Of a DNA stretch of 64,000 nt, positions 3,437 to 63,397 are shown piece by piece. Under the pieces are notes generated by a model. It searched no databases. It was not told the DNA's origin and was given only the letters and a program-made list of their open reading frames with translations. How positions within the stretch are numbered: position 1 is the first letter of the stretch; every line of letters begins with the position of its first letter. Source of the DNA: a virus. The translations under genes and the position numbers were made by a program. The DNA is taken from the IMG/VR virus record IMGVR_UViG_3300014911_000001, positions 111,797 to 175,796 of that record; one strand, 5' to 3'.

Positions 3437-4127
3437 TAGTAATAGTACAGCGCAGTTTGTAGATCTTATTTTTGATCCACGGTTTCTTGATGCGTTGAAG
3501 TCTAATGTTATACCGAGGCCGATAAGATATGGTGAGATCTTATCCTTGTCGCAGTTATTTGGTGTTATAAAGCAGGTTATTGAGCATCTGAGGCCGCAGT
3601 GCAAGGTTTATCCGGCATATGGAAAGCATTTTTTGTATGCTTATGGTCTTGTTGATGATGAACCTGAGGCGGGCTTCAAAATTCCAGATGAGATTATCGG
3701 TTATGTACTATATAGTGCGGAGCCTGCGACGATGGGTGGTTCACAACCTGGTTCAAGTCCACAGGTGCGGCGGCCTCGTCCGGTACATAATGCTTTAACC
3801 GTAGATGTGGATTATGCTGCGCAGTTATATTACTATGCACTTGATGCGTACATTGATTTTTTCTTTTTTGCAAAGGATACACAGAGCATATATGAGTTGA
3901 TGGATTGGTTTCAGGAATTGATGTTTTCGACGCTGTCGCCTTTGTTAAAATATTTGGGTGTAGAGCAGGTTCATTTTGATTCGGCGGGCTTCGATGAATA
4001 CATGCGTTCTGTTCGACCAGAGGTTGTAATTCCGATAATGAGGTATTATTTTAGGATACAGCGTCTGTATGTTTCGTATCAGAAGATTATTAAAGCAATT
4101 TTGTTTAGTCTTATAGAGGAACAATAA
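3429..4127 (+). CDS. Putative tail terminator / tail completion protein
   Basis: 232 residues, starting within the end of the previous gene (ATG 3429). The N-terminal part (to ~100) is mixed alpha/beta, followed by a Gly/Pro/Ser linker (~100-120). A helical C-terminal half then contains 'VDYAAQLYYYALDAYIDFFFF', 'IYELMDWFQELMFSTLSPLL' and 'LGVEQVHF'. Proteins at this place, last before the sheath gene, usually cap the tail tube and join it to the neck. The helical run and final short strands fit some tail-completion proteins, but I see no diagnostic motif. Confidence 0.4.
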   Translation: MANSNSTAQFVDLIFDPRFLDALKSNVIPRPIRYGEILSLSQLFGVIKQVIEHLRPQCKVYPAYGKHFLYAYGLVDDEPEAGFKIPDEIIGYVLYSAEPATMGGSQPGSSPQVRRPRPVHNALTVDVDYAAQLYYYALDAYIDFFFFAKDTQSIYELMDWFQELMFSTLSPLLKYLGVEQVHFDSAGFDEYMRSVRPEVVIPIMRYYFRIQRLYVSYQKIIKAILFSLIEEQ

Positions 4128-4146
4128 AACATAGGAGTGGGGAAAA

Positions 4147-7100
4147 ATGCCAAGGGATATAAGAGTAAGATTCAGGCCTACGTTGGTTACCCCTCAGATA
4201 AGAGGGGGGTTTCCCACGCTAGGTGTTTTGATTATCGGTACGGCTACTGATGGCCCGACAAATGAGCCGGTTATTGTAAGGGGTCTTGAAGAAGCACAGG
4301 AGATTTTTGGCAACTTAGGTGAGGGGACTCTGCTGGAGGGTTATCATGAATTTATCACAGGTGCTTCACGTGGTGCAGACCTGCGTACTGTTGTGGGGCT
4401 TATGAGACTGGATTTCGGTGAGTATGCTAGTGTGGAGCTACCAGAGCCATCGACGGGTACAGGGCTAAGCGAGCCAATGGGTGCAACGGCGCTTACTATT
4501 AGAGCAAGATATAAAGGTGAAATATACAATATGTTTACCATATCATATAAAGCGGTAGCTGGCGGGTTTGCTGTATCTATAGTTGTGCCAGCTGAGAAAG
4601 ATCCATCAGGAAAAAGCCAAGAATATGTGCTTCTTTGTGACCCATCAGGTAGTAATACAGAGCTTATAAATAATCTTACGGAGCTGGCTAATGCTATTAA
4701 TCATCATCCAGTGCTGGCACGTTGGTTGTATGCGGAGGTAAACCTTCTTGATAGTAGATATTCAACGTATATATCCAATGGATTTTATTCGGGAGCTGGT
4801 GAGTCATTTAATGCGTGGGGTGTAGGATATAATGAGACTGATAAGGTTATAGATTTTGTGAGCCGATTTAGTGGCTCGCCTAGTAGTGATGTTTTGGATT
4901 CAGATGGTGACGATACACTAGGACAGTATCATCCTTATACGATATTTGGGACGACTCCTATCAATGTTAGGGCCACATCACTTGACAACATACAGAATAT
5001 AAGGAATTTTGGAAAACTGGCATTGTATGATGTGTCTGTGGATGCTAATACGAAGATTGCTAATTTAGGTGTCTATCCTCTTATACAGACCAAAGCCGGT
5101 GCAACAAAATTTTATCCCATAAGCGCATATAATGATTATGATGATGATGGTATGTATATTGATGTACCTAATTATCTAAGGAATTGGGACACCCCCGCGA
5201 CAGCTAAATATCTTATACCGGGTAGATTTCCTGTATCGGAGGCTGTCTTCTATATGGATGTGATTCTGAACCCCAGCGGGGCTTCAGGGGATGTGAATTA
5301 TGTCGAAACTAATATGTTCCTGCCTGTGGATGTTTATGGTGATGTATCACTAGCTAATCTTATTAATGCATCAAGTGTTAGTGATACAAGACGGTTTAGT
5401 TATAAATGGATAATACAGACAGAAGCCGGGACGGTTTATGATAGTGGGGCATCTACTTATACGGGTTGGATGTTGCCTCTTTTCCATTCTCCAATGTCAT
5501 CTATCGGTGGATTAATATTATTCCATCAGAAAGATGGATCGCCGGTTGATGAGTTGGATACGATATTTGGTTCATGGAAATATCTCTATTTAGGTGTGCC
5601 TTCACAGGTAGGTGGATCGGCGCCTGATTGGTATTCTACGACATCTGATGCAGCTACATTAAAACTTATTGATACAGGGGATAGTGAGAAGGTCCATATA
5701 GGTTTGGGTCCTGCATCAGCATTTTTCACGAAGACTGATGTAACGAGCCATTATGGTAATGAGACATCACCGGATGAGAATTATACTAATGCTATAAATA
5801 CGGATGTAAAAGATTTTGATGGTTCGTATTCAGGTAATGAGTTCAAGCTCTATTATTCAACAGATGGTTCATCTTGGCATGAAATTCCTTTGTATTATGA
5901 ATATGATGGTAAATATTGTTCTGGCCTTACATTAGAGTGGACATTTAATGGTCAAACAGATCTGGCCGCCTTAACTGACCTAAATACATTCAAGATCAAA
6001 TTCTTTGATGGGATCACATGGTCCTCGGAGGATGATCCCGAGATCAAAGAAATCCAGTCGAAGTATCCATTCCTTGAGGTTGCGAAGGATACCAGCACTG
6101 GTGAATATTATCTCGTAATAGCTGCTGGAACAAGAATAAGACTAACGGGTTATACACCGAAGGTTATGTTGAAGTACCTGCCTTCGAGGGCGGCGCTTAA
6201 TGACTGGTATGAGTATACTGTCTATCAGGATAGGATTGAGTTTGGTACACCTTATCCATACACAATTAAATTCAAGGTTCATTATCTCAAGGAGTTTGTT
6301 GAGAATGTTGATTACATATATGATTCCGCACAGGGTACATTCCAGATGCTTGACTCTGAATTGATACCACCTGATAAGCTAACATTGCTTTATATGGATT
6401 ACCAGTTTGAGCCTGAGTGGTTTGATACGTCTCGTATCTATACATTATCAGGTGGTTCATCTGGGTTTGAGAGGGCGCGGCCTCTTGAATACTATGCAAA
6501 GTTCCGTACGGCCTTGCAAGCTATAAGCACAGATGATAGATTTGACATTATAGTGCCAAAGGGTGCTTATATAGACACAGTTGATGAGGTATATGATGCA
6601 TCTATATCTTCGACGACATATGTTAATGTAGGCTATGTGGATCTCTTTGATGAGTTTACGCAGAAACGTGCTGATGATGGCAACCCAACGATTGTTATCC
6701 TAGCAGCGGAACCTTATAAACCTGAGACAGCTATTGTAGGTTATACCCGTGAGGGTATAGCTAATTGGGTAACAAGGATGACCGATACTACATCAATTGA
6801 TCCCCGTTCGCCGGCGGGCTTAATTGCCTCTGTGACTGACAATCCAATGATGTGTGTTACTGTTGTACCGATAGCACTTATAGCACCGGGCGGCGCTTAT
6901 TACATATCGGATGGAGCTGCATTCCTTGCGGGTCTTGCTGCAAGATTCCATTATGTGCCCCGCACTGCAGCTAATGAGAGTCTTTACAACCTTGCACTTC
7001 CTAATGGTGTCAGACCTGCGTTTAGATTATCGGAGTCACAGGTTGATGCATTGCTCAACATGCGTTACATAGTGTTCCACATGGGTCAGGATGGAGCGCC

Positions 7101-7431
7101 GCGGCTTATGAGAGATACAACACTTGCCCAGCCATTTAGTTCATTGAGTGCGCTAACCCACCTAGCTGTGTTGCTGCGTATTAAGCAGGGATTTATAAGA
7201 AGGCTGCGGCCTCATATCGGTAAGATCGTTAACGCTCAGACGAAGATGGAGGTTGATGCAGCTATAACATCCGAGTTGGCACTATGGCAGAAGAGTGGGA
7301 TTATACAGCAGGCTATAGTTGATATTGATTGGGCAAGTCTTGAAGGTACATTGGGAGTATTACCAGTGCATATTACGATTGTGAGATCACCCATTCTGAA
7401 GGGTGTTGAAATAGATATTGTTGTGCGGTAA
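4147..7431 (+). CDS. Tail sheath protein, very large
   Basis: 1094 residues; SD-like ggagtgggg precedes ATG 4147. The N-terminus has the typical start of contractile sheath proteins ('GVLIIGTATDGPTNEPVIV', then 'EEAQEIFGNLGEG'). The C-terminal ~300 residues carry the conserved sheath core: 'FDIIVPKGAYID', 'IVILAAEPYKPETAIVGYT', 'IAPGGAYYISDGAAFLAGL', 'RYIVFHMGQDG', 'GFIRRLRPHIGKI' and the closing 'GVLPVHITIVRSPILKGVE'. Residues ~230-790 form a long insertion of repeated beta-rich segments with no relative I recognise. Known sheaths are usually 380-700 residues. Sheath monomers form the contracting outer tube. The gene has its own spacer before it and a rho-independent terminator after it, as expected for a highly expressed protein. 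Confidence 0.9.
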   Translation: MPRDIRVRFRPTLVTPQIRGGFPTLGVLIIGTATDGPTNEPVIVRGLEEAQEIFGNLGEGTLLEGYHEFITGASRGADLRTVVGLMRLDFGEYASVELPEPSTGTGLSEPMGATALTIRARYKGEIYNMFTISYKAVAGGFAVSIVVPAEKDPSGKSQEYVLLCDPSGSNTELINNLTELANAINHHPVLARWLYAEVNLLDSRYSTYISNGFYSGAGESFNAWGVGYNETDKVIDFVSRFSGSPSSDVLDSDGDDTLGQYHPYTIFGTTPINVRATSLDNIQNIRNFGKLALYDVSVDANTKIANLGVYPLIQTKAGATKFYPISAYNDYDDDGMYIDVPNYLRNWDTPATAKYLIPGRFPVSEAVFYMDVILNPSGASGDVNYVETNMFLPVDVYGDVSLANLINASSVSDTRRFSYKWIIQTEAGTVYDSGASTYTGWMLPLFHSPMSSIGGLILFHQKDGSPVDELDTIFGSWKYLYLGVPSQVGGSAPDWYSTTSDAATLKLIDTGDSEKVHIGLGPASAFFTKTDVTSHYGNETSPDENYTNAINTDVKDFDGSYSGNEFKLYYSTDGSSWHEIPLYYEYDGKYCSGLTLEWTFNGQTDLAALTDLNTFKIKFFDGITWSSEDDPEIKEIQSKYPFLEVAKDTSTGEYYLVIAAGTRIRLTGYTPKVMLKYLPSRAALNDWYEYTVYQDRIEFGTPYPYTIKFKVHYLKEFVENVDYIYDSAQGTFQMLDSELIPPDKLTLLYMDYQFEPEWFDTSRIYTLSGGSSGFERARPLEYYAKFRTALQAISTDDRFDIIVPKGAYIDTVDEVYDASISSTTYVNVGYVDLFDEFTQKRADDGNPTIVILAAEPYKPETAIVGYTREGIANWVTRMTDTTSIDPRSPAGLIASVTDNPMMCVTVVPIALIAPGGAYYISDGAAFLAGLAARFHYVPRTAANESLYNLALPNGVRPAFRLSESQVDALLNMRYIVFHMGQDGAPRLMRDTTLAQPFSSLSALTHLAVLLRIKQGFIRRLRPHIGKIVNAQTKMEVDAAITSELALWQKSGIIQQAIVDIDWASLEGTLGVLPVHITIVRSPILKGVEIDIVVR

Positions 7432-7456
7432 GATTGGTGGAAGGAATATCAAGTAG

Positions 7457-7488: not shown

Positions 7489-7509
7489 GTTTTGGTATGT
7501 TGTCTTGAG

Positions 7510-7743: not shown

Positions 7744-7758
7744 TATTAGGAGGTTATT

Positions 7759-8616
7759 ATGGGACTGACATTAAGTTCTAATAAATATGCTAAGACATTT
7801 AATTCCTTTTCAGGTGCCGATATATTCATAATCTTTGAAAATGCTACTGTTGGGACAATAACCCAGCTATCTTGGAATATAACGAGGGAGAAGGCCCCTC
7901 TTTATGTTCTTGGCCATGTTGATGCTGTGGGTACATCACGTGGTAAGAGAAGCATTGCTGGTTCACTTACAGGTCTAATCTTTGACCGTTGGACACTCTT
8001 TGATCTGGCATGGGGATCTGACATTACAGGTGAAGGTGGCCGTACCGGTGAGTATGCTGAGTATGCAAGGAAGACGGGTGATATCTTGGTGCCGGGTGAT
8101 TTGATGTTTGTGGATTATGCTGATATATATGGCACTGATGTAGCACCGGGTACTAGAGCATGGCCTGTAGGTGGTGGTGGGTCTGCTGAGGAAGCATGGA
8201 AAAAGATGCTTGGTTGGGAGCCTAGCAGGGTTGTGTATGCTGACCAAATGCTACCATGTGATGTAACGATTGTTGGTATTAATGAGGCAGGTAACTTTAT
8301 GGTTTCGAGGATTTTTGGTATAGATTTGCTATCAACAGGTGCTGGTATATCAATTGATGATGTAACTATGGAGGAGCAGTATACATGGTTTGCTATGTCA
8401 ATGCTACCATTTTTACCGAGGTATACAGGCGGTGAAGGTACTGGCTTAGAACTTTATAATCTCCTTAAGGAGTATTGGGGACTACCGGGTTCAGAGATGG
8501 CGTCGTTAAAGTCAGCTATGGAGACAATAGCTAGAGCAAGTCGTTCTGGTTTAGGTACTGGTAGCACTACTGGTGGAACAGGTACTGGAGGAACTGGTAC
8601 TGGTGGAGGAGGTTGA
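7759..8616 (+). CDS. Tail tube protein
   Basis: 285 residues behind a clear AGGAGG (ATG 7759). The first ~75 residues are typical of myovirus tube proteins: 'FSGADIFIIFENATVGTI' then 'ITREKAPLYVLG', 'RGKRSIAGSLTGLIF'. A second half-barrel pattern follows at ~165-220 ('LPCDVTIVGINEAGNFMVS', 'ISIDDVTMEEQYTWFA'). Between them is a Gly-rich loop (~130-145). After ~225 come a short helical segment and a Gly/Thr tail ending in GTGGGG. The protein would polymerise into the inner tube under the sheath. The codons for the final glycines also form the SD of the next gene. Confidence 0.8.
   Translation: MGLTLSSNKYAKTFNSFSGADIFIIFENATVGTITQLSWNITREKAPLYVLGHVDAVGTSRGKRSIAGSLTGLIFDRWTLFDLAWGSDITGEGGRTGEYAEYARKTGDILVPGDLMFVDYADIYGTDVAPGTRAWPVGGGGSAEEAWKKMLGWEPSRVVYADQMLPCDVTIVGINEAGNFMVSRIFGIDLLSTGAGISIDDVTMEEQYTWFAMSMLPFLPRYTGGEGTGLELYNLLKEYWGLPGSEMASLKSAMETIARASRSGLGTGSTTGGTGTGGTGTGGGG
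8605..8612 (+). promoter_or_regulatory. Shine-Dalgarno embedded in the Gly tail of the tube gene
   Basis: GGAGGAGG lies 3 bases before ATG 8616 and decides this start over the overlapping TTG at 8613. The same bases encode the last Gly-Gly-Gly of the tube protein, whose TGA shares a base with the ATG (TGATG). Confidence 0.65.
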
Positions 8617-9791
8617 TGAGATTAGAGGATGCTGAAAGCAAGCAGTATGTATTTAGTTTTAGTGGTGCTGATTATATACCATTTGCTTTTGTGGGGGGGC
8701 GGCTTCGTGCGCTCCCCCTTGTTATGACGATAACGGCTTCTTTTGTTGCTGATCAGGCGCCAGCCTTAACCCTTGGTAGTAAGGTACCACTGACAATAAG
8801 GCCCGGTCATGTTACTGTCGCGGGCTCCATTATAGGGGCTGTTAGTGATGTACATCCTCTCTTTCCATTGACATCATTGTTTGTTAGGGATGTGCGCTTC
8901 GGTACTGATGTTGCGCTAAGGACATATGAATTACCCCTTTTTGATATTATTATTGTTGGCATTAATGAGGTAGGTAGGACGACCGTTGCGAAGGTTTATG
9001 GTGCACGCATCCAGCAGGGAGGATATACGTATTCAATCCAGGATCTTTACACAGAAACAACATTTCAGTATAGGGCGCTGGATATGGATGAACCTCAGGT
9101 AGCACCTGTTATGGAAGGTGAGATGATGCATTATATTAATCCAGCCATATTTTTTGACCGGCTTAATAGGATTCCTATCTTAGCGAAGAATAAAGCGGAG
9201 GTTGGTGCTGTATTGGGTGTTATATTATCATTGCGTGCGAAACTTATTGACATCTATGACAAGATTGCTAATGCAAAGAGTATAGAAGAGCGTGAGCATT
9301 GGTTGCAGGAAGCTGAAAATGTGCAGGAAGAAATCCGCAGGTATGAGGATGCGCTTAATACGACATTGAGGTTATATTCGAGGACTGTTATATCAGGTAA
9401 TCAATTTGCGGATGCTGTATTTGGGGATTTGGTTTGGCCGCGGGATTTGAAGTATGTTGAAGTGGAGAAATCTTATGTATATCCGCAGCGTTATTATGCA
9501 TCTGTTGGGGATACACAGAAGATTGGTACCTATCAATGGCGTTCTGAACATGAGACTGATATGTGGAATATATATACCTATTTCCAACAGATTTATATAA
9601 TGTTACGAGATTCGTATCGAAAAGGAGATGTACCTATGCATGATTTATATAGGAGGTGCTTAGATTTCCGTGCGAAGTTAATAAGTGCTATGTCAACCTT
9701 TAAGGAGGATAAATATTTACATCCATATTATGGTGAAGCTTTATTGAAGCGTTATGATGAGTTAATTAAGCAGATAAGAGAGAGACTATGA
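8616..9791 (+). CDS. Second tube-type protein with helical C-terminal extension
   Basis: 391 residues. Residues ~10-150 parallel the preceding tube protein: 'FSFSGADYIPFAFVGG', 'APALTLGSKVPLTIRPGHVTVAGSIIG', then 'LPLFDIIIVGINEVGRTTVAKVYG' and 'YSIQDLYTETTFQYRA'. This is the same order of strands and the same I-V-G-I-N-E signature as its neighbour, so the two are probably paralogues. From ~180 it becomes helical, with a coiled-coil-like 'EEREHWLQEAENVQEEIRRYEDAL' stretch at ~225-250 (quoted here in outline) and a helical end. A likely role is tube initiator or baseplate-tube junction, or the distal end of the tube. It overlaps the next gene by 4 bases (ATGA). Confidence 0.55.
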   Translation: MRLEDAESKQYVFSFSGADYIPFAFVGGRLRALPLVMTITASFVADQAPALTLGSKVPLTIRPGHVTVAGSIIGAVSDVHPLFPLTSLFVRDVRFGTDVALRTYELPLFDIIIVGINEVGRTTVAKVYGARIQQGGYTYSIQDLYTETTFQYRALDMDEPQVAPVMEGEMMHYINPAIFFDRLNRIPILAKNKAEVGAVLGVILSLRAKLIDIYDKIANAKSIEEREHWLQEAENVQEEIRRYEDALNTTLRLYSRTVISGNQFADAVFGDLVWPRDLKYVEVEKSYVYPQRYYASVGDTQKIGTYQWRSEHETDMWNIYTYFQQIYIMLRDSYRKGDVPMHDLYRRCLDFRAKLISAMSTFKEDKYLHPYYGEALLKRYDELIKQIRERL

Positions 9792-11794
9792 TAGTCCGCC
9801 GTTTTGTAAATACTAACATATATAAGAATCTACAGGAGAAGCAGGGCATAACGGACAATGATGGTACTGTTTCCTATAAGCCGGCTGAGGAAACGACTTT
9901 TGATATACCTTATTTAGAGGATTTTTATACCCCTGCGCTTATTACGCTTTACTTTGATGGCATAAGGATAGCTGAGGCTGTTTTTGTGGAATATGTTTAT
10001 AATGATCAGAAGATACCTGTTTATGGTTATGGGGATCGTTATGTTCGTGCATTTGAGGAGGGGCATCATTTAATAAGCGGGCGCATGGGGTTTTTATTTA
10101 AGGAGACGGCTTATTTATCGAGTGTTATTGATTTGGTATCAGGAAGCCGGCTTATTACCACACCCGGAGGTGAAAGTGCTGTATATGCATTGCTGCAGAG
10201 AGTACTGAGCGATCCTGAGGTTAATGAAAAAGTTGAATATATGAGGCAGATTTTGACATCGGTATTTGGGTTGGAGCCCTTCAAGGTTGGGCAGCTTAAT
10301 GCTAATCAGATGATTAATTTATTAAAGATTTATAAGTCTGTTATTTATATGACTGTGAATCCCCGCTATGGCGCCACAGGTCCTTTGGTGACAGAGGCAA
10401 TGAACAGTAGCGAAGCGCTTAGTTCTCCCTCATCGCCACTGGTATGGAAGATCGGCTCGCCTCATGTTATATCGGCAATGTTAGATATGGAGGATGTCTT
10501 TGGTGAGGTGGCTATTGAAGGATTGTGGGAATCAGTGGAAGATGCATTATGGAGTAAGGAGGTGCCGGGCTTAGACATTGCACCCATCGTAGAGCATGAT
10601 TTAGGTTATACAGGTTATGGGTATGTAATATCTGACAAAACATTTGATGTTTTTATAAGGTATGGTGCTGATGGATCAAGCATTACAGACCATACAGTTG
10701 AGGTTATCAATGATGTCCATCTTGTATCAAGTGGCAAGAGCATCAATGTTGGCTCGCCTGATCTTGTTGTTGAGGTTTTGGAGTTCATAGCGCGCACTAA
10801 CAATCGGCGGCTTAATATCTACCAGCATAAACAGGTATCGGAGACGGATGAGCTTATTCCACCGCAAATGGATAGTGGTATGAGCGAGGGGAAGAAGTAT
10901 TTTAGTTATAAGAAAGAAGAAATGGAGAATGCGAGGGTCGGGGATCAGGAAAAGGAGAAATATAGAAAGCTTTCAGAAGAGGAATTGAAAGAAATGCGGG
11001 CTACCTTGTGCGGTCGTTGTATTGATGAAAGATGTAGTATCAAGGTGGGTAGTTTTGGGTTTAACACGTTGAAAGATAGCTTGTTTGAACATACAGGTAT
11101 AACATTAGATATTAGCTATCGAGGTGAGACTCATTTTGGTCCTTTGGTCATATATGAAAAACCGACATTTACTTTGAGTGTGGAGAAGACAGTTGATAAT
11201 TTGTTGGCTAATATTGCAAAATTATCGCAGGCTGCTACAAGGGGATCATTGGGTGGATTTGTAGTAGAGAAAGGTTTGTTGGAAGTTGTGTGGGGGCAGC
11301 ATCCTAAACTTGAGCAGCAGGGCCCTCATAAAGTAAGGACAGTTGGTTGTCCTTTTGCGTTTGCGGAGGCGGTTGTAGAAAATTTGAAGCCATCATTTTG
11401 TTTACGCTACTTGAATGCTCTTTTAAGGTATAGTGCCCCACCGAGTGCTATTATTGATGATTTGCGTGCTATTTTAGATTATGTTACTTCGCATTCAGGT
11501 ATCGCAAGTTTGAAGTTTCCTATAGCTATTGCTATGGCTGGTCATGGTGATGAGTTTAATAAAAACATTTCGCAATATATGAAAGGGGTTCATGTGCCAC
11601 AATTTGATGTATATGATGGATTAAAGATAAGTGTAAAAAAAGCACTACTACAAATAAATGAAGGGGAAAATACTCCTTATAAATTGGCTGTTTTGCCGTT
11701 GTACATAATTATGATTGATTTAGCTGACCGTGAATCGGTATTGAATTTTAAAAATAAGCTTGACACATGGACATTCCATCATTATTATTACTGA
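9788..11794 (+). CDS. Virion structural protein with tube-like N-terminal domain
   Basis: 668 residues. Residues ~45-120 carry 'ITLYFDGIRIAEAVFVEYVY', 'IPVYGYGDRYVRAFEEGHHLI' and 'SGRMGFLFKETAYLSSVI'. This is the 'p.yGy....~a~~~G~~li~G~~~i~f' pattern of tube or tube-associated proteins of large myophages. Residues ~240-345 resemble the matching second half (GYVISDKTFDVFIRYG, then 'VINDVHLVSSGKSINV'). Residues ~365-400 are charged and low-complexity. A Cys cluster (C408, C411, C416) could bind a metal. The C-terminal ~240 residues are unlike anything I know. It is the third tube-like gene in a row and may be a baseplate tube-junction protein. Confidence 0.45.
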   Translation: MIVRRFVNTNIYKNLQEKQGITDNDGTVSYKPAEETTFDIPYLEDFYTPALITLYFDGIRIAEAVFVEYVYNDQKIPVYGYGDRYVRAFEEGHHLISGRMGFLFKETAYLSSVIDLVSGSRLITTPGGESAVYALLQRVLSDPEVNEKVEYMRQILTSVFGLEPFKVGQLNANQMINLLKIYKSVIYMTVNPRYGATGPLVTEAMNSSEALSSPSSPLVWKIGSPHVISAMLDMEDVFGEVAIEGLWESVEDALWSKEVPGLDIAPIVEHDLGYTGYGYVISDKTFDVFIRYGADGSSITDHTVEVINDVHLVSSGKSINVGSPDLVVEVLEFIARTNNRRLNIYQHKQVSETDELIPPQMDSGMSEGKKYFSYKKEEMENARVGDQEKEKYRKLSEEELKEMRATLCGRCIDERCSIKVGSFGFNTLKDSLFEHTGITLDISYRGETHFGPLVIYEKPTFTLSVEKTVDNLLANIAKLSQAATRGSLGGFVVEKGLLEVVWGQHPKLEQQGPHKVRTVGCPFAFAEAVVENLKPSFCLRYLNALLRYSAPPSAIIDDLRAILDYVTSHSGIASLKFPIAIAMAGHGDEFNKNISQYMKGVHVPQFDVYDGLKISVKKALLQINEGENTPYKLAVLPLYIIMIDLADRESVLNFKNKLDTWTFHHYYY

Positions 11795-18685: not shown

Positions 18686-21600
18686 TGGCAGTTATAAGGA
18701 AAAAACATACATATTTGCGTACTTTTACACGCAGGAAGGAGCGGGAGAAGGGCAACCGTTTTGCGAAGTTTGGACTGGGGGTTGCTGCTCTTGTGCCCAT
18801 TGTTTATTTGGTCAGGGGGCGCGGCTTCGAAAGGCTACATGATTTTCTTAAGACCTTTGCTGAGGCTTCATATAAGAAAGAGGCGCGGGCTTCAGAAGCA
18901 TCTCTATGGGCATATGGGCCTCTTGATAGGATAAAAAAGGCATTTATGGATAATCCATTTTTATCGGTACTGGGTACTGTTACCAAAAAGGAAGCACAAG
19001 GAAGGTCTGTAAGGGAGGTATTGAATAAATTAAAGGATATTGTCGAGCTCTTGCGTGAATATTATTCGGTAGCTGAAATAAGAAAATTATTTAATGAGGA
19101 TATTATTCCTTATGCTGATAAAGCGTCTAAGCTTATTGTTGAGGAGGAAAAGCAATTAGTATATAAGTATCAGTTAATGTTTGAGCGGGCGCTTAAAATT
19201 CTCACGAGGAAGATTAATGAAAAAGGGTGGCTTCCGCGAGACCCATTTCATTTTCGTCTCCTAAGTAAGTATTTACCACATAGCTACAAATTTGGATTGT
19301 TTTATGGTACGATGCCGAGTTTTTCGGCGCCTCTATTTGAGATTTCTACAGCTAGTGAGCAGTTTGCACAGATTTTCCAAAGGGAGATAAAGAATCTATC
19401 AGAAAGTGAGGTTTTACTTGGTCAACATGTTGAGCAGGTTATAAAAGATTATGTAAAAAAGCATGTAGTTGTAAATCCTGAGTGGGAGCTTGCTGCTAGT
19501 GAGGTGTTTAAGCATCTATCAGCTGAGGAGCATTTACAGGTCCGAAATCTTGTTACAAGAATTACAGAGCAGGTAGCTAAGTGGTTGCATCGTCATGCCG
19601 GTATTGATGCAACAGATTTGCCTGATGTGCATGTTGTTATAAAGGCGCAGCGTTATTATGATGTTCCTATGCTAGTTGCTCAGCTGTCGGTTGTTGATCT
19701 GCGTGGGGTCAAAAGGAGTATAGAGATCAAGCTTGGTGTTCCCCAGAAAAGTGGATTGATGGCAGCTATAGGAAATTATCCAACAGCAAATGTCAGATTT
19801 GCTCAAGGTAACAGGGTAAGGTCGATCTTTTCCTTGAAGCTGGAGCGCTTAGGCGAGATGTTTGAGCATGCCTTGAACGATTTATACGAAGGGAAGTCAG
19901 AGGATTATGTTACCAGACGCATTCATAGAATCATTGGACGATATGATTTATATGGAACTGGGCGTAATGATAAAGCATTCCAGTTGGTGCATTCCATTGT
20001 TGATAAGGACTTTAAGGATTATGCGGCTTATAATGCTAAAAAGAGATTTTTGAAGCGCGCTGCTGAGTTGGTGCTTGGTGTGAGAAAAGGCAAGTATCGG
20101 GTGTTTATGGATGCTGAGTGGGTTATGGCTGGTATATCGAGTACTGGGACTCAATATGCAGTGACTGAATCCCGCCGGCGCTTGATATGGAGTTTTGCCA
20201 TACAAGTTTTTGATGATCTTGGTAATGAGGTTGATAAGTTGGTTGTATTTATAGATCCGAAGACGATAAGCGATGAGTTCTTCATGTCGCAGGTGCGTCG
20301 TTTTGGATTATCAAAGGCAGCTGCTGAGGAGGCATTAAAAGCGGTTAGAGGTCGTGTTGCGATGCCTGCTGGATATGTCAGAGTTGATAGTGAGATGGAA
20401 GCCAGCCGGCTTATATGCAAGAAAATAAAAGACATAATTAATAAATATGGTAAGGATGATCTACTTGTTATGGGTAAGAACTTCTGGAGCTCAGAGGTTG
20501 CATTGTTGGAGCGGGCCTTTAAAGCTGACAGTAATATATTAAATTATATCAAAAGAAAGTTAGTTGATATAGAGGATATATATAGGTTGGTATATGGTGC
20601 TAAGGCTATTAACAGGTCATTAAGTGTTGAGGCTATTCTCGATTATGTAAAGGTATCGGATGAAGGATCGAAGCTATTGGGCCGGCTTCTTAATTATGAA
20701 CCGAGGGTTGAGGTCCAAGCGTTTGCTAATTTAGTTAGGTCGCTACATTTTGGTGAGCAAGATAACAGGATTGCATACATCCTATCAAAAATTGCGGAGA
20801 GCATGGTTAATAATGATCCTGAGTTGCGTGAGAGAGTACTAAGGATTTATGATATTGTAGCGAAGTCACAGGGAGCTGTTTTATCATTTACAACGCAGCA
20901 GGAGTTCATGCAGCGGGCTTACAATTATGTAAAGGAGCAATTGAAATCTGTTGGTGTTGGTTCGCCTAATGCTGCGCGTAAGTGGCGTTTTGAATATCCG
21001 TTTAATCCGGCTGATTGGGTTCCGCTATTTGTTCCCACCTTGGAGAAACAGAGGTATCAGTTAGGCCGCGGCTTACCTTTATCGGAGGCGTCGAAAAGAT
21101 TGCTTGAAACTCTTAAGAAGGAATATGCTAGGCGCGTATTAGGGTTGGGTGAGGCTGATATCAATTATCTAGGACCGGCGCTTATTTCTATGCCATTTAA
21201 GAGATTCCTAGAACAGCAGATGTTATATAATGTCCGTAGTGTATTTACGATACCTGTCTTCTCAACATTTTTCCCATTTGCTGGCGAAGGACATATGTTT
21301 ATACACAGGAGACTTACTGAGCTATCGACAGTAGTGCAGGAGGTGATTAGTCAGAAAATTCCGATAAGTAGGTTGGAGAATATGGATGCTCGTATGCAGT
21401 TGTGGGTGAAGCTTTTTGAATCTGCCATGGAGGCTGTTAAGACATCTCCGAAGTTGGGTGAGTTAATTAAAAGCAAATTTAATAATGATATTGTTAAGTT
21501 TTTGAGAGCTGTAGATTTGTCGATTGTTATTGGTAGATATCGTGGATGGATAAAGGATTCTGAGCGGTTGGCTAATGTTTTAGTGCAGTTGTTTCCGGGG

Positions 21601-51589: not shown

Positions 51590-53011
51590 ATGACGGAAGA
51601 TAGGTTACTACAACTAATACATAATGGGGAGTTTGATGATTATATTGAAACGCTGGATCTCAGAATCAAGAAGTTGCGCAATATAGCTGATGATTATGCA
51701 AGATTAATGGATGCGATAGAAACAAGTTTTATGTATGACTTAGATATTATCCAAAAGTGGAGCATACATGTCCTACGTGACTATCTGAGGAAGAGATTTG
51801 ATGTTGTATGGGAGTGGAAGATCTCTGATTGGGATTTGGCTAATATAAAGGCGCAGTTAGCTCACAGTATTGTTGTTGATGGTGTGATGGTTAAGGATCT
51901 TTATATTTTAAATGGCAGAAGGGTTACATTTGAAGGTACATATCATAATTTAACGGATGTTAATGAAGATACATATTTTCGTATTCACGGTTACCGTCAG
52001 GCAGCTGTAGCTTTTCAGATACAAATTAGTAAAGGGGTAAAATATTTAGCAATAAACATGTTCCCCCGTTGGCATCAGTATGTATATTTAATGTCGACTG
52101 ATGGACGAAGGTTATCTAATACAGTTCTCAATGCCGGAATTGTTCTTATACCAGTAAAGGAGCCCGGCGATTATTTCCTTGTTGTTGGTGAGTTATTTGA
52201 TAGAGAAAGCATCATAATGATATCAGATATTATTGCATTAGGGGAATATCAGGATGTACCAGAGGTTACGTTATCATGGAAGCCGGCGGGCTTCTACAAT
52301 TACTTCTTTGTTTATCCATTACTTGCCGGAAAAACGGCTTTGAAGGTAACCGATGGTACTAATAGTGTGGATATTTCATATGGTATTAACTTTATACAAA
52401 AGTGGATGGTTGAGGAGTCTGAAGCCCGCGCTTCGACCAGCATTGATTACTTAGGGACCCATTATAATAAGGCTTATTTAGTGGATTCAATATCACCTAT
52501 TGTTGCCAAGAAGACGGAGGGGGAGCGGCTTATTTATTATTTCCCCAAGTTAACTACTGTTAAAGGAAGCGGGCGGCTTCTACAGCTCGACAGAACATGG
52601 AGGTTCACGCGTCCTATTGACATTGATGGTGAAAAATCATTGATCGGAGTTTTCAAATCCGATGGTAGTGATTTTGAGATTGATGGTATTTATCTGGCAT
52701 TCAGCAAGCCTTTATACTTTATTGATAAGGACTATTTTTATGTAAAGGATAGCAGAGGACATATATATCTTGTATTTAGGCGTAATCCAAGCGAACTAGA
52801 AGCTGGTGATGCGATATACTGGTATAATCTAAAGGATATGAGCATTAAAGTTAAAGCAACACATGGTGGTGTGTTGTTCATGGGTTCGGATAACACATTG
52901 TTACCATTGGCACCTAAGCGTCCAATCAATTTTGAGTTAGGTGGTTATGGTGAAGGTCCATTATCAGCTCCTGGTGGAACTCCTATGGAGGAAGAAGAGG
53001 AAATATCATGA
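51590..53011 (+). CDS. Tail protein: helical stalk plus beta body (473 aa)
   Basis: Residues ~1-60 are helical with heptads ('DDYIETLDLRIKKLRNIADD'), then a second helix. Beta domains follow with 'AAVAFQIQISKGVKYLAINM' and 'GDYFLVVGELF', and then a segment with repeated 'FYVKDSRGHIYLVFRR'-type strands. The end is Gly/Pro-rich and acidic (MEEEEEIS). Same architecture as the 403-aa and 241-aa proteins. ATGA overlap with the next gene. Confidence 0.42.
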   Translation: MTEDRLLQLIHNGEFDDYIETLDLRIKKLRNIADDYARLMDAIETSFMYDLDIIQKWSIHVLRDYLRKRFDVVWEWKISDWDLANIKAQLAHSIVVDGVMVKDLYILNGRRVTFEGTYHNLTDVNEDTYFRIHGYRQAAVAFQIQISKGVKYLAINMFPRWHQYVYLMSTDGRRLSNTVLNAGIVLIPVKEPGDYFLVVGELFDRESIIMISDIIALGEYQDVPEVTLSWKPAGFYNYFFVYPLLAGKTALKVTDGTNSVDISYGINFIQKWMVEESEARASTSIDYLGTHYNKAYLVDSISPIVAKKTEGERLIYYFPKLTTVKGSGRLLQLDRTWRFTRPIDIDGEKSLIGVFKSDGSDFEIDGIYLAFSKPLYFIDKDYFYVKDSRGHIYLVFRRNPSELEAGDAIYWYNLKDMSIKVKATHGGVLFMGSDNTLLPLAPKRPINFELGGYGEGPLSAPGGTPMEEEEEIS

Positions 53012-56141: not shown

Positions 56142-56146
56142 AGGAG

Positions 56147-56159: not shown

Positions 56160-56171
56160 TATAAAAATGCG

Positions 56172-58550
56172 ATGCTTTTATTATGGACAAATATCCCGGA
56201 AGCACGGGGATATATTGTTTATAAAGCCCCGCACTTTGTCTATCCGACAGGAAAGTTGTCAGAACCAAAGTGTGTCTGTAAAGGGGATAGTGATACATCG
56301 GACCCGGGCTTCAGCGTACCCTCCTATGTTGACGATGGATTAAAGGGGTTTTTAAGCCCGCCAGAAGGTTATAATTTTTATGCCTATACCGAAAGCAATC
56401 ATTTGGAGGTTGATACAGGTGTTTATGTAGTTGTTGCGATTAATGGTATTTGTGCATCAAGTTATTCAAATCCTGTTAGCATTGTTTCTGAGTTGGAGGA
56501 AAAAACCATATCAGTAGCTATAAGGGAGGTGCCTGTTGATGATACTGTTGTAGCCAAGCGTTTCTGTCGGTGGGGTGTATTTTTAACAAAAGTGCATTGG
56601 AATTTTAATATTGATAGCATTATAAGTACTGACTATAATGTTGACATTGAATTCAGCACTCTAACCAGCGGTTCCTTTGTACTTACTGGTGTACCTCCTA
56701 CTGGTAGTGAGGATGTATCAGGTAGGTCATTTTATAAGTATGCTTTCGAGCCATTGGTCATAAAGGTCAGTACTGATGGCTGTTCTATCAGTCAAGTAAA
56801 TATTGCTATTGATGTTGTTTTGATTGAATACCCGCTAGATGTTATAAGGGCTGCCTTGGAGAAAACAACGGTTATAGATCGTTTTGATAAACCTGAGCCA
56901 TCCTTAGATTATGTCACAACGGGTTATCTTAGGAAGCCGTTGATATTAGATTGGATTTATGTCGACACATCTGGTTCTTTAGATGCATATTTATTATTGC
57001 ATAAGCGCGGGCTTTATCATCATTATGATTTGTCATTGGATAATAAGTTTAAGCCGCCGCTTGTTTTAAGTGATATGGATGATCTAGCACTATATACTAA
57101 AGGTGACACAGGTTCTGTAGTTATGGTAAGTGAAGGCCCGCTTCAGGTAAAGCAAGATAAATTACCTGACATGAAGGATGTTTATTTTGAGGGCGGCTTC
57201 CTCTTAGGGCATGATAGAGAGATAAGGCGTATATATCTGTTCAAGGGGGCAATCAAACATATTGATGTCCAATTTTACAAGCAGCATGATGATGCCGAAC
57301 TGACGGTTTATACACCACAGGCGGGGCTTCAAACATTTTTCATCCCTAAGGATATTTTATCTGCACAGTTCGTTACTGACATTCCATTTGATGCTGGTTC
57401 ATATATAGTAATAAGTTCAACAGAAGAGCATCCTATTACTGTGGATTGTGATGTGCGCATTGAGATATGGAGAGAGTATCCACCTTGCATATGTGAAGTT
57501 GCTGTTGAGGAAGAGGAAGAGGAGGGCGCGCGGCCTCTAATTTACGACGGCACCTATTTTGAAGGCGGGGCTAATGGCTGGCGCTACAAGACATATCCTT
57601 TCCAAGCACATCTATCCAAAGTAATGTTCCTTGGACACGATTTATTTGATGTACCCGTGCGATACAACTTCTATGTTAATGGGGACCTAGTAAAGACGTA
57701 TGATCTTAATTTCTCAACTAGCCGGCTTCTACAATTTGATTTAGATATAACAGTCCCGTCTAATGGTGTCCTTGTTATTGAGCAGATTATTATGGATCGT
57801 ACAATGTATGAGGTTACAAGGGATGTTGATGTCATATGGTCGCTTACCTTCGAGGGTGAAGGAGCATATGTAGCAACATACACGGCGGCTGATTCTGTAC
57901 TCCTGAATTCACCATCATCTAATAGTACAACAGAATTCCAGCTTATTGATGCTATTACATTTCCACATGCTGTTCATTTGACGGGCATGAGTGCTTCGGC
58001 GGCTTCTGGTAGCGATAATGCTATATACAAGGTTGAAATACCGGATTTAGATGTTAGCTATGAATTTACAAGTACATATCTATGTGATCCTGTTGTAGAG
58101 GTGCCGCCTTACACTGCTATAAGGGCTTATTATAAGGTCAATGATCCTGAAGGGGATGAGGTTGCATACCCACAAGTCCTTTTGCATATAGGCTTTTTGG
58201 CTGAACGTGAGGAGTTTGTTGATCTTGATAATGTGGGTATATTTTGGTTGAGGGAGCATAGCGGGAGTCTGTATGACACTATTACTCATCAGCTTGCTCT
58301 GCCAAGTGGTACCTATAGGTGCATCTTCTTGCAGGCATCTGTTTACCAAACGCCGTTGGATGAAGCAGATATTATTATTGATATAGGAGGAAGCGGAGAT
58401 ACTCTTAATGTGAAGCCGGGGCTTCATAACATTTACAAAACAACGGATTTCACCTTTGGTAATATGGATACAGTTACAGTAAGTTCAAGTGACCCGCGGC
58501 TTATGCACGGTATTGTTATCATGGCTATCTATCAGAAGGTTGAGACATGA
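56172..58550 (+). CDS. Fibronectin-III-like and beta-sandwich tail protein (792 aa)
   Basis: ATG 56172 begins directly in an FN3-like domain ('LLLWTNIPEARGYIVYKAPH', closing 'VYVVVAINGICASSYSNPVS'), residues ~1-105. Further sandwich domains follow. The middle contains an acidic spacer (EEEEEEGARP, ~450-460), and the later part has repeated 'lp-sGtY-rciflqA' type strands. FN3 domains are common on exposed parts of phage tails, where they are thought to touch host surfaces weakly. No enzyme motif. Confidence 0.5.
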   Translation: MLLLWTNIPEARGYIVYKAPHFVYPTGKLSEPKCVCKGDSDTSDPGFSVPSYVDDGLKGFLSPPEGYNFYAYTESNHLEVDTGVYVVVAINGICASSYSNPVSIVSELEEKTISVAIREVPVDDTVVAKRFCRWGVFLTKVHWNFNIDSIISTDYNVDIEFSTLTSGSFVLTGVPPTGSEDVSGRSFYKYAFEPLVIKVSTDGCSISQVNIAIDVVLIEYPLDVIRAALEKTTVIDRFDKPEPSLDYVTTGYLRKPLILDWIYVDTSGSLDAYLLLHKRGLYHHYDLSLDNKFKPPLVLSDMDDLALYTKGDTGSVVMVSEGPLQVKQDKLPDMKDVYFEGGFLLGHDREIRRIYLFKGAIKHIDVQFYKQHDDAELTVYTPQAGLQTFFIPKDILSAQFVTDIPFDAGSYIVISSTEEHPITVDCDVRIEIWREYPPCICEVAVEEEEEEGARPLIYDGTYFEGGANGWRYKTYPFQAHLSKVMFLGHDLFDVPVRYNFYVNGDLVKTYDLNFSTSRLLQFDLDITVPSNGVLVIEQIIMDRTMYEVTRDVDVIWSLTFEGEGAYVATYTAADSVLLNSPSSNSTTEFQLIDAITFPHAVHLTGMSASAASGSDNAIYKVEIPDLDVSYEFTSTYLCDPVVEVPPYTAIRAYYKVNDPEGDEVAYPQVLLHIGFLAEREEFVDLDNVGIFWLREHSGSLYDTITHQLALPSGTYRCIFLQASVYQTPLDEADIIIDIGGSGDTLNVKPGLHNIYKTTDFTFGNMDTVTVSSSDPRLMHGIVIMAIYQKVET

Positions 58551-59461: not shown

Positions 59462-59473
59462 TAGGAGGTAATA

Positions 59474-61429
59474 ATGAAAATATTAAAAATAGTAGGAGCT
59501 ATCTTACTGTTGTCATCGGTGGTGTTAGGTGTTGTACCAAGCAAGCTTATGTATATGGGAAGGTTGGCTGATGCTGATAATCATGTTGTTAATGGATATG
59601 TAGAGATGAGGTTTAAGTTTTATTCAGACAGTACAGGGACAACGCCTTTTAAAACGATTGAATTTGTTGGTGATGATTCCATTGAGGTTTCGGCGGGTTA
59701 CTTCTTTGTTGTTATGGATTTATCAGATGTTATTGATTCACTTAACCAGACGGTCTATCTTGAGGTTGATATTTATAACAAAAGCACATCAAGTTGGGAA
59801 ACATCTGCAGAGAGGGAGAGGCTTGTAGCGCAGGTACCATATACAATATGGGCCCACCGATCGGCTGTGGCTGAAACTGCAAATGTTATTAGTTCTGGTG
59901 CTGTGCAGACAAGTACACCTATAACAGGTGATGGAACCTCTAGTAGTCCTATTTCGCTTACATATGGATCGGGGCTTACACTTTCAGGATCTGTTTTGAT
60001 CGTAGATTTTGATAATAGTACTATTGATACTAATTCAGCAGGTAAGATAAGAGTTAAACCCAGTGGTATTACATCAACAGAGATTAATGATGATGTTGTG
60101 TTTTCCAAGGTGCAGAATGCTTCTGGGACATTACAATTTGCAGTTACTGATGGTAATGCAGCATTACAGTTTGCGGCTTCGGGTATGAATTCAGTTTCAT
60201 TCGATTCGGATAACCATAGAGTGACATATACCGCAACAGCTAATACCAATGTTCCTATTACAGGAAATGGTACATCCGGATCTCCTCTTAGTTTAAACTA
60301 TGGTACTGGACTTACATTATCGGGATCGGATCTTATTATTAATGAGAGTGATATTCCATATACGCCGTCAGATGTATCTGATTGGAGTGGTAGTGTGGAT
60401 CCCGGGGATGTAAATGATGCATTAGACCAATTGGCTAGTAGAACTACCAATCTTGAAAGTGGTAGCAATAATAATTATATTCGTAATCAATATTCATCTG
60501 CACAATCAGCAAGTTTTTGGATTAGTGGAAAGGGCAAAGCCAGTCAGTTAATTGCTGTGGATACTTTATTCCTAGGTGATATTTTAAAAATATATTTGAA
60601 GGGAGATACAATATTCTATGCATCTGATTCAGTATTAGATTTTGGCGGCGGCTTAATAATTGAGAAAGATAATGATGTGAAGGTAACAGCTGATCTTTAT
60701 ATTCCGAGTGCAACAGTGAATACTGCGGCAAGTACATTGTTAGCTATAACAAATGGCAAAGTAGAAAAAATTCTAAAATCAAGTGTGACGGCTGGTGTAT
60801 CTTCTATTACCGGTGGTCTTGGTCTAGAACCTGATGATGCATCAACTGGTGATGTTACAATGACTGTTGATATGACGGAGCTTCATCTTAAAGGGTTGGT
60901 TGCAACCACATATGATTCGTTGAGGGTAAAAATAGATGGTAATACAATATGTTTTGGTGGCTCTAATGAATTACAGGTTTGTTATGGTGGTATATCAACA
61001 AATCATATCAGTGACGGTACAATTATTGATAATGATATATCTTCCAGTGCAGCTATACAGTGGACGAAGATAAGTAAATCAGGATCTTCCATAGATGATT
61101 TAGGTGATGTAAATACGAGTTCAGCGGCTTCAGGGGATATTTTGTATTATGATGGTAGTAAGTGGACGATTCTTTCGGCTGGTACAAGTGGCTATGTACT
61201 TCATACGAATGGAGCTGGGGCGGCGCCTTCATGGGGTACAATGGCTGATTTAATAGCAGGAGATGGTCTAAAATATACATCAGCTGGAAATTATAATGGT
61301 ATAGATGATAAAACACTTCAAATAGATATAGCAGATTCATCTCTAACATTTTCTGGTTCTAAGTTAAAGGTTTCATTAGGCAAGGCGACCTTGACAACAA
61401 CGAATTATAAAATATATAGAAATTATTAA
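59474..61429 (+). CDS. Signal-peptide fibre-like protein, paralogue A (651 aa)
   Basis: AGGAGG SD precedes ATG 59474. Sec-type signal peptide (~1-20, 'MKILKIVGAILLLSSVVLGV'). Residues ~22-130 form a beta domain beginning 'VPSKLMYMGRLADADNHVVN' and ending 'QVPYTIWAHRSAVAETANVI', the pattern of many secreted proteins in FCB-like phyla ('g.l.d..g.p..g.....f.iYd...' to 'vPYa..A..a..a'). The remaining ~500 residues are Ser/Thr/Gly/Asp-rich repeats typical of trimeric fibres, with 'GSPLSLNYGTGLTLSGSDLI', 'ISDGTIIDNDISSSAAIQWT' and 'IDDLGDVNTSSAASGDILYY'. The end is 'TTTNYKIYRNY'. It is a tandem duplicate of the next gene, of equal length. Confidence 0.6.
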   Translation: MKILKIVGAILLLSSVVLGVVPSKLMYMGRLADADNHVVNGYVEMRFKFYSDSTGTTPFKTIEFVGDDSIEVSAGYFFVVMDLSDVIDSLNQTVYLEVDIYNKSTSSWETSAERERLVAQVPYTIWAHRSAVAETANVISSGAVQTSTPITGDGTSSSPISLTYGSGLTLSGSVLIVDFDNSTIDTNSAGKIRVKPSGITSTEINDDVVFSKVQNASGTLQFAVTDGNAALQFAASGMNSVSFDSDNHRVTYTATANTNVPITGNGTSGSPLSLNYGTGLTLSGSDLIINESDIPYTPSDVSDWSGSVDPGDVNDALDQLASRTTNLESGSNNNYIRNQYSSAQSASFWISGKGKASQLIAVDTLFLGDILKIYLKGDTIFYASDSVLDFGGGLIIEKDNDVKVTADLYIPSATVNTAASTLLAITNGKVEKILKSSVTAGVSSITGGLGLEPDDASTGDVTMTVDMTELHLKGLVATTYDSLRVKIDGNTICFGGSNELQVCYGGISTNHISDGTIIDNDISSSAAIQWTKISKSGSSIDDLGDVNTSSAASGDILYYDGSKWTILSAGTSGYVLHTNGAGAAPSWGTMADLIAGDGLKYTSAGNYNGIDDKTLQIDIADSSLTFSGSKLKVSLGKATLTTTNYKIYRNY

Positions 61430-61441
61430 GGGGGTGGAACA

Positions 61442-63397
61442 ATGAAACGCTATATAGCCATAATTGTTTTGTTGTCCTTTACGCTATCATTTGCTCTTGT
61501 GCCCATGAAAATTGTGTATAAAGGGCGGCTTACTGATGCTAATAATAAAGTGCTGAATGGTACTTATGACATGATATTTAGAATTTATGATGGTGGTTGT
61601 AATAGTGATTGCTCGGAGTGTACAGGTACCAAGCTTACCGATGATACGGTATCTGTTGAAGTGAATGATGGTTACTTCCATCATGTTATTGATCTATCGT
61701 CTGTATCATTAGAAAAATTAAATAAGCAACTGTTTTTGGAAATATGGGTTAAATATGGAGATTTTGAAAGGCTGTGCCCTCGCGAGACGCTATACACGCG
61801 GGCTCCTTATACTATATGGGCGAGATCAAGTGCTGTGGCTGAGACAGCAAATGTAGTGGGGAGCGGGGCTGTTAATACAAGTGCGCCTGTTGCAGGTGAT
61901 GGGACAGCAAGCAGTCCTATAACATTATCATATGGAGGCGGGCTTACCCTATCAGGTAGTGCATTGATAATCGCATTTGATAATAGTACTATTGATACCA
62001 ATTCTGCTGGTAAGGTTCGTGTTAAACCCGGTGGCATTACATCGACGGAAATTAATGATGGAGTTGTATTTTCATCTATACAAAATAGTTCTGGTACTGA
62101 ACAGTTTACTGTTACTGATGGCAATACCGCATTACAATTTGCTGCATCGGGGATGAATTCCGTTTCGTTTAATTCAACTTATAACCGTATTACTTATACA
62201 GCGACGGCTTCAGTAAGTGCTCCTATCACAGGTAATGGAACATCAGGATCGCCTATAGGCTTAAACTATAGTACGGGGCTTACATTATCTGGTTCCAGTT
62301 TGATTATAGATGAAAATAATATCCCATATACTCCTAGTGATCTAACGGATTGGAATGGTAGTGCTGATCCGGGCGATGTTGATGATGGTTTAGATCAATT
62401 AGCTGATCGTGTGAAGTCTATTGAAGGTGGTAATAATACGAACTATATTCAAAATCAGTATGGTACAGCTCAGTCAGCTAATTTCTGGATTGGTGGAAAA
62501 GGCAAGGCTGGTCAGCTTACTGCTATTGATACATTGTTCCTTAATAATGTGCTAAAGATTTACCTAAGTGGAAATACAATATATTATGCCTCGGATTCCG
62601 TTTTAGATTTTGGCGGTGGCTTAATAATTGAAAAGGACAACGATGTGAAAGTTAATGCTGATCTTTATGTTCCGAATGCATCAGTGAATTCATCGGCAGA
62701 AACGCTATTGGCTATAACAGGTGGTAAGGTAGAAAAGATATTGAGGTCTAGCGTTACAGCTGGCGTATCGTCTATCACTGGTGGTTTAGGTCTCAATCCT
62801 GATGCTGTGACAGAGGGTGATGTTGTAATGACTGTTGATATGACAGAGCTTCGTCTTAAGGGATTGGTGGCAACTACATATGATTCACTAAGGGTCAAGG
62901 TAGATGGCAATACTATATGTTTTGGTGGTTCTAATGAGTTGAAGGTTTGTACTGGTGGAATATCAACGACTCACATTAGTGATGGAACTATAGTTGATAA
63001 TGACATAAGCGCCACAGCTAATATAGCATGGAGTAAAATTAACAAATCTGGTTCATCGATAGATGATATAGGGGATGTTAGTACATCAGGGGCAGCAAAC
63101 GGTGCGCTTCTTTACTATAATGGATCATCATGGGTTGATTTATCCCCAGGTACAAGCGGTTATGTCCTAAGAACTAATGGAGCAGGCTCGGCGCCTTCAT
63201 GGAGCACACTAAATAGTTTATCAGCAGGTGATGGACTTACATATGTTTCAGGTGGGCCATATAATGGTATGAGTGATCTGACGCTAAAGGTTGATATAGC
63301 TGATTCATCTCTTACTATTATAGGTGGCAAGCTTGCTGTTACCCATGGAAGCCCGGTGGCTACGTCTAGTAATTTCAAGTTATATAATAATCATTAA
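61442..63397 (+). CDS. Signal-peptide fibre-like protein, paralogue B (651 aa)
   Basis: AGGGGGTGG precedes ATG 61442. Signal peptide 'MKRYIAIIVLLSFTLSFA'. The N-terminal beta domain (~19-130) differs clearly from paralogue A and has extra Cys ('GGCNSDCSECTG', 'ERLCPRETLYTRAPYTIWA'). From ~135 on it is closely similar to A along its whole length (e.g. 'DFDNSTIDTNSAGK' against 'AFDNSTIDTNSAGK'). This pattern, variable head and conserved stem, suggests different binding specificities on a common stalk. It ends 'SSNFKLYNNH'. Codons differ widely between the copies, so the duplication is not recent. Confidence 0.6.
   Translation: MKRYIAIIVLLSFTLSFALVPMKIVYKGRLTDANNKVLNGTYDMIFRIYDGGCNSDCSECTGTKLTDDTVSVEVNDGYFHHVIDLSSVSLEKLNKQLFLEIWVKYGDFERLCPRETLYTRAPYTIWARSSAVAETANVVGSGAVNTSAPVAGDGTASSPITLSYGGGLTLSGSALIIAFDNSTIDTNSAGKVRVKPGGITSTEINDGVVFSSIQNSSGTEQFTVTDGNTALQFAASGMNSVSFNSTYNRITYTATASVSAPITGNGTSGSPIGLNYSTGLTLSGSSLIIDENNIPYTPSDLTDWNGSADPGDVDDGLDQLADRVKSIEGGNNTNYIQNQYGTAQSANFWIGGKGKAGQLTAIDTLFLNNVLKIYLSGNTIYYASDSVLDFGGGLIIEKDNDVKVNADLYVPNASVNSSAETLLAITGGKVEKILRSSVTAGVSSITGGLGLNPDAVTEGDVVMTVDMTELRLKGLVATTYDSLRVKVDGNTICFGGSNELKVCTGGISTTHISDGTIVDNDISATANIAWSKINKSGSSIDDIGDVSTSGAANGALLYYNGSSWVDLSPGTSGYVLRTNGAGSAPSWSTLNSLSAGDGLTYVSGGPYNGMSDLTLKVDIADSSLTIIGGKLAVTHGSPVATSSNFKLYNNH

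Follow-up and report, generated by a model that had tools for sequence, protein, structure and literature searches.

A short word, GCGGGCTT, recurs throughout a 64,000-nucleotide stretch of phage DNA, and the question raised by this locus is which unit the word belongs to and what keeps it there. The stretch (hereafter the window) covers positions 111,797-175,796 of a virus record of 175,796 bp (G000). A preliminary description had taken the word for a highly iterated, frame-independent and strand-polar motif. Iteration and frame independence have both held: exact search of the window recovered all 25 plus-strand and two minus-strand copies at the coordinates first read by eye, against a mean of 1.03 and a maximum of 3 in the dinucleotide-shuffled window (both strands summed), near variants are likewise strongly over-represented, and copies fall in all three reading phases (24/21/10 for sense copies genome-wide). 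The next base is A or C in all but two cases, as reported, the exceptions lying at 33025 (G) and 57007 (T). Polarity has held in part. The whole record carries 72 copies on both strands; relative to their own gene, 55 are sense and 12 antisense. The one-sided look of the window comes from its genes, nearly all of which are on the plus strand.

The phage record

The record belongs to a myovirus-like tailed phage, with matches to tail sheath, baseplate wedge, major head protein, terminase, B-family polymerase, primase-helicase and ribonucleotide reductase. About 200 genes are found in the 176-kb genome, including those for a nuclease of Cas4/AddB type, several helicases and a recombinase of RecA/UvsX type. 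A contig of a relative (G001) spans both ends of the 175,796-bp record, which is therefore probably a nearly complete, circularly permuted genome. A sigma-factor-like gene and numerous AAGGAGG ribosome sites (CCTCCTT on the opposite strand) point to a bacterial host.

Several genes show features of their own. The terminase large subunit is apparently split by an intein, with Hint-domain matches at about residues 192-272, between the N- and C-terminal terminase matches (record positions 100351-102897, locus L014:351-2897). Three successive genes at window positions 7759-8616, 8613-9791 and 9788-11794 all match the major-head-protein family phrog_9206, which suggests duplicated or split capsid proteins. 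Neighbouring 651-aa proteins encoded at 59474-61429 and 61442-63397 have similar N-termini and signal-peptide-like starts, and are probably duplicated tail or fibre proteins. One gene of the record (loci L012-L013) matches IS605 OrfB/TnpB with a Cas12f-like domain; if this TnpB-type gene is taken, as we assume, to be the 414-aa gene at 74808-76052, it holds 6 SSSGGCTT sites against 2.4 expected.

A palindrome with a G/C centre

The word GCGGGCTT is not itself the unit, as first thought: unconstrained motif fitting and a peak in spacer length identify it as only the centre and right half of a 14-bp palindrome, approximately GARGC-SSSS-GCYTC (S being G or C, either accepted), of which half-sites are common. 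Each of the 25 forward copies (3669-61945, plus strand) supplies the S-run centre and the GGCTT right half, as seen from exact search and flanking sequence. Full palindromic sites in the window include GAGGCGCGGGCTTC at 18880-18893, which contains the forward copy at 18885; GAAGCCGCCGCCTC at 40080-40093; GAAGCCCGCGCTTC at 52421-52434, which contains the reverse copy at 52422; GAAGCCGGGGCTTC at 58412-58425; and GAAGCCGCGGCTTC at 63415-63428, the commonest 14-mer of the record (9 places). The other reverse copy found by exact search lies at 56354-56361 on the minus strand. Half-sites are exemplified by GCGGGGCTTCA, with a near-variant centre, at 5276-5286 on the plus strand and at 3406-3416 on the minus strand.

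Upstream of GGCTTC, the share of G or C at the five adjoining bases is 88, 88, 85, 80 and 66%, neither base being much preferred over the other, and the mirror-image pattern surrounds GAAGCC. The distance between the arms is nearly fixed: AAG-S(n)-CTT occurs 7, 20, 36, 12 and 11 times for n = 4 to 8, with a sharp peak at n = 6, and GAAG-S(n)-CTTC occurs 3, 10, 20, 3 and 2 times. In the opposite arrangement, CTT-S6-AAG has no occurrence within genes of the record, and the reversed pattern CTTCGGSSS stands only at background level. Motif fitting by EM, with a third-order background and the number of sites set to 150, ended on the same palindrome (G-R-R-G-C-S-S-S-S-G-C-Y-Y-C) from an asymmetric half-site and from a symmetric start; the fitted motif, GARGCSSSSGCYTC, is a GC-rich palindrome, as are the highly iterated palindromes (HIPs) discussed below, and weaker A and T preferences appear two bases outside the 14 bp. 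Among random starts, the half-site was recovered unprompted in 1 of 15, the others giving codon-like TGATG repeats; a run with free site number drifted to generic G/C-rich sequence and was discarded. At 400 sites the GGCTTC arm stays sharp and the opposite arm fades to purines, and most sites therefore consist of a strong half and a weak half. By strict count there are 277 half-sites and far fewer full palindromes, 40 sites having AAG upstream at the correct distance.

Iteration over the genome

Both the whole window (1-64000) and the remaining 111.8 kb of the record carry the motif in dispersed form; by PWM scan, most of the genome has 14-23 sites per 10 kb that score as palindromes. When all forms are merged, the record holds 431 sites with a mean spacing of 401 bp and a largest gap of 2,427 bp, and genes and the DNA between them are about equally dense in sites. 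The record has 216 copies of SSSGGCTTC against 5.0 in dinucleotide shuffles, and its 8.3 kb of intergenic DNA has 13 where 0.27 are expected, an excess in coding and non-coding DNA alike that is characteristic of HIP elements. SSSSGGCTTCA has 25 matches in the window where 0.18 are expected, the half-site at 5276-5286 being one of them, and a symmetric-matrix scan gave 119 sites at ≥14 bits against 1.0 in shuffles. Site spacing has neither helical (10.5-bp) nor codon periodicity. Strongly even spacing was considered and rejected, spacing being no more than weakly even (CV 0.87 once sites within 14 bp had been merged, a step that itself lowers the CV), and binned site counts are not below Poisson.

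Codon usage, gene strand and protein sequence

A synonymous shuffle had been proposed as the test that could explain the word away. Synonymous third-base shuffles gave 2.7 sense copies of GCGGGCTT against 49 observed, and 7.0 even with the next two bases fixed, with all phases enriched; codon usage and codon context are thus rejected as causes, in agreement with the preliminary description, which had also correctly denied that a protein motif accounts for the word. For SSSGGCTTM in genes, the synonymous null predicts 9.9 sense and 8.1 antisense copies, and 197 and 82 are found; under a stricter synonymous null the enrichment is 7.5-fold in sense and 5.8-fold in antisense. G/C runs in general also exceed codon nulls (S≥8, 272 vs 144).

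Because both strands are enriched and, as shown below, equally conserved, most of the polarity is attributed to gene orientation and codon constraint. A roughly twofold residual sense excess is not accounted for by a symmetric element; it may come from codon constraint beyond the reach of the shuffle, or orientation may be somewhat relevant. Sites number 133 sense and 44 antisense on plus-strand genes, and 80 and 43 on minus-strand genes, so that orientation is set by gene strand on both strands and not by replication direction, as it would be for KOPS.

The motif also skews protein sequence itself. Where composition predicts 8.6 occurrences, Ala-Gly-Phe has 28 (3.3 times as many) and the reversed Phe-Gly-Ala 5; Glu-Ala-Ala has 31 against 11.2. 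These expectations use residue frequencies only, and any one excess may owe something to ordinary protein sequence; the over-represented peptides are nevertheless those that the motif would encode in particular frames, and the contrast between forward and reversed peptides recurs over several triplets.

Conservation in relatives

Six records from other samples, with overall identities of about 93-98%, were aligned to the phage, and expected changes were computed from background rates for the same record, codon position and type of base change. Since relatives share ancestry, the substitution counts are not fully independent, contrasts between classes being less affected. Motif-breaking changes numbered 87 against 233 expected (0.37 of background), whereas motif-preserving G/C swaps stood at background (6 vs 5.9, 1.0; small numbers). 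Near-miss sequences gained the motif 21 times against 10.0 expected (2.1) and changed to another non-matching base 16 times against 15.9, and in polarised examples gains and losses were about equal in number. Breaking changes were reduced in both directions, S-to-W to 0.38 and W-to-S, at the two T positions, to 0.26, a result not foreseen by mutation or repair bias that acts in one direction. For the same reason, together with the neutrality of G/C swaps, mutation-cold or deamination-protected G/C runs were rejected as the source of the pattern.

The rate of motif-breaking was similar in sense (0.39), antisense (0.34) and intergenic (0.46) contexts, and half-sites (0.39) were nearly as well kept as full palindromes (0.32). 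The footprint of reduced change comprises the motif and little else. In one relative (G006), 2.9% of third-position G/C had changed at motif bases and 10.1% elsewhere; 93% of its motifs were retained against 78% of scrambled-core controls, and 74% against 49% in G001. The position four bases downstream of GGCTTC had 6 changes against 19.0 expected, which may be chance among the 46 positions tested or part of the footprint. In DNA unique to one record (23 kb in total), 0.99 sites per kb were found, compared with about 1.8 in DNA that records share; a reversed control gave 0.04. Recently acquired genes seem to be poorer in sites, which would fit a gradual accumulation of sites in the genome.

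Occurrence in hosts and other viruses

In a complete scan of 84,980 bacterial and archaeal species genomes, the W-flanked core palindrome was found at 74 loci, with at most two per genome; the phage has 3 in 176 kb, a density that predicts about 34 in a 2-Mb host. Ten genomes with such loci had motif counts near background, and 297 genomes of one phylum held at most 5 GAAGCSSSSGCTTC each. A complete W-flanked scan of IMG/VR found the core palindrome repeated only in the lineage of this phage, and among the matches listed in an unflanked scan, enrichment was likewise limited to that lineage. Searches for distant relatives by terminase, primase and RNR returned only records of the same lineage, a 21-kb piece of a Moorella phage (nearest terminase in the phage collection) had no comparable motif, and a literature search found no paper carrying the motif sequence. 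Pfam scans of most phage proteins detected no DNA methyltransferase; one weak match to a methyltransferase family was obtained with PHROG (1.2e-4).

Two other contigs showed repeats of different kinds. One 171-kb virus contig (IMGVR_UViG_3300003690_000003, 42% GC at positions 157783-170861, locus L107) has long G/C runs at about three times expectation and many GC-only palindromes (CCGCGG, GGCGCGCC) lacking AAG/CTT flanks, possibly a second iterated element. A GC-rich contig of an unrelated virus (IMGVR_UViG_3300046789_000068, locus L118) has 36 copies of GAGCTC, both strands counted, in 9 kb where 3.3 are expected, and this is a candidate iterated palindrome.

What maintains the motif

We consider it probable that the motif represents palindromic double-stranded DNA sites, maintained by selection, that a putative symmetric and probably dimeric DNA-binding factor recognises; the phage would then carry an element akin to HIP1. 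What is observed is a palindrome that is iterated, exceeds codon and dinucleotide nulls, does not depend on frame or strand, and is conserved while gains and losses balance; from this we infer the factor, that it is dimeric, where it comes from and what it serves. The GARG/CYTC arms would be read base by base, and the central four to six bases would need only to be G or C, a G/C-only centre suggesting indirect readout (stiffness or groove shape) rather than base contacts. Hundreds of full and half copies would be kept by selection through this recognition. The numbers of half-sites and their near-equal conservation (0.39 vs 0.32) would also be compatible with asymmetric half-site recognition. 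The near-even, gene-independent coverage suggests a role at the scale of the whole genome rather than in local gene regulation, and organising, condensing, partitioning or marking phage DNA as self are candidates; a modification target, a replication mark or a packaging mark, all named in the preliminary description, are further possible roles of the palindrome. The putative factor is probably phage-encoded, an origin favoured because no bacterial genome examined repeats the motif. A more specific form of this proposal is put forward tentatively: the phage would have its own self-marking or genome-organising system, with palindromic sites every few hundred bases and a putative phage-encoded dimeric protein, selection on the sites altering codon choice and amino-acid sequence, and the motif being absent from the host and every other virus examined.

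The main rival is a HIP-like repair by-product, in which a palindrome-reading methylase or mismatch nickase biases repair so that near-motif sequences become the motif and changes within it are undone, the sites needing no function, as in Elhai's proposal for HIP1. The closest described phenomenon is of just this sort: palindromes rich in G/C crowd both genes and intergenic DNA, and alternate forms (GCSGC) are linked to methyltransferases (PMC4390886). The surplus of gains and the shortage of losses relative to background are as compatible with biased repair as with selection, and very short accessory stretches already stand at about half the motif density. We nevertheless regard this by-product as unlikely, weakened as it is by the lack of a recognised methyltransferase in Pfam scans of most phage proteins, although the enzyme could be unrecognised or host-encoded, and by G/C swaps that are not suppressed (in small numbers); the saturation expected from it leaves the amino-acid skew unexplained on its own, though a strong drive could produce that skew. 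More doubtful still is a Chi-like recombination or nuclease-control signal, with a helicase-nuclease of host or phage reading the half-site on one strand and sparing or processing the DNA. The sites are indeed dense, short, GC-rich, frame-independent and above codon nulls, half-sites exceed full palindromes in number, and the phage encodes suitable enzymes (the Cas4/AddB-type nuclease, helicases and RecA/UvsX-type recombinase). However, known Chi sites are specific asymmetric words, and here the arms are mirror-symmetric, the spacer is fixed and the centre takes G or C freely; orientation tracks genes on both strands and not one replication direction, and the motif-rich genome that a host Chi predicts was absent among the 84,980 scanned. 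The Chi/KOPS-like polar signal listed among the earlier suggestions is also at odds with the equal conservation of sense, antisense and intergenic sites.

That equality largely refutes an RNA-level signal in transcripts (a hairpin, processing or pausing site), to which we give very little credence: sense copies in genes do exceed antisense ones by about 2.4 to 1, and a 5-bp stem closing a 4-base loop could form from GAAGC-SSSS-GCTTC, but half-sites unable to form the stem are conserved too, and an all-G/C loop is not what selection for a hairpin would yield. Least credible of all is a plain mutation bias (the preliminary description had named a context-dependent one), or a clustering of G/C by composition with no recognition of particular sites. 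G/C runs do exceed codon nulls in general, and those away from the motif are mildly conserved (transitions 0.76), but the idea is contradicted by losses suppressed at T and G/C positions alike with motif-preserving changes at background, and it runs against the background level of CTTCGGSSS, the absence of CTT-S6-AAG in genes and a spacer fixed at 6.

Comparison with known systems

Chi sites (RecBCD/AddAB) are asymmetric specific words that act on one strand and are rich in the host. The phage motif shares with them, including host Chi as used by phages, the character of a short, dense, GC-rich, frame-independent and over-represented word; unlike them it is symmetric, degenerate at the centre and enriched in no bacterial genome examined. 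Sites of Noc, SlmA and MatP are palindromes of 13-14 bp, bound by a dimeric protein, spread over the replicon and serving whole-chromosome functions, with tens of copies per several megabases in regional patterns. The phage motif, with its putative dimeric factor, would resemble them in form and reach, and has hundreds of copies in 0.18 Mb and no regional pattern. The stoperators of cluster A mycobacteriophages offer another case of one motif repeated across a phage genome: sites of a repressor, they lie mostly away from promoters and mostly in the orientation of transcription. They number 20-30 per genome, lack dyad symmetry and are bound by a monomer (PMC6550527). The phage motif differs in its roughly 430 merged sites with dyad symmetry, conserved in both orientations.

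HIP1 of cyanobacteria is the highly iterated palindrome GCGATCGC, and alternate HIPs include S-containing forms such as GCSGC (PMC4390886). The phage motif is found in a tailed phage and not in a cyanobacterial chromosome, is 14 bp long with a degenerate G/C centre and without GATC or CGATCG, has no methyltransferase recognised in Pfam scans of most phage proteins, and is not shared by any bacterial genome examined. In cyanobacterial genomes HIPs have gone unexplained for decades, both selection and repair bias having been put forward. With a 176-kb phage and its close relatives, gains, losses and neutral changes can be counted in a small system that evolves fast, and the search space for the binding factor is reduced to some 200 genes of the phage or to one host. 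Should the factor be phage-encoded, the motif would be a dispersed whole-genome DNA mark, which phages are not known to keep, and a DNA-level constraint would have been shown able to reshape protein sequence. Like HIP1 and the alternate HIPs, the phage motif is a short GC-rich palindrome, far above composition in and between genes, and its spacing falls in the same class of roughly one per several hundred to a thousand bases (PMC4390886).
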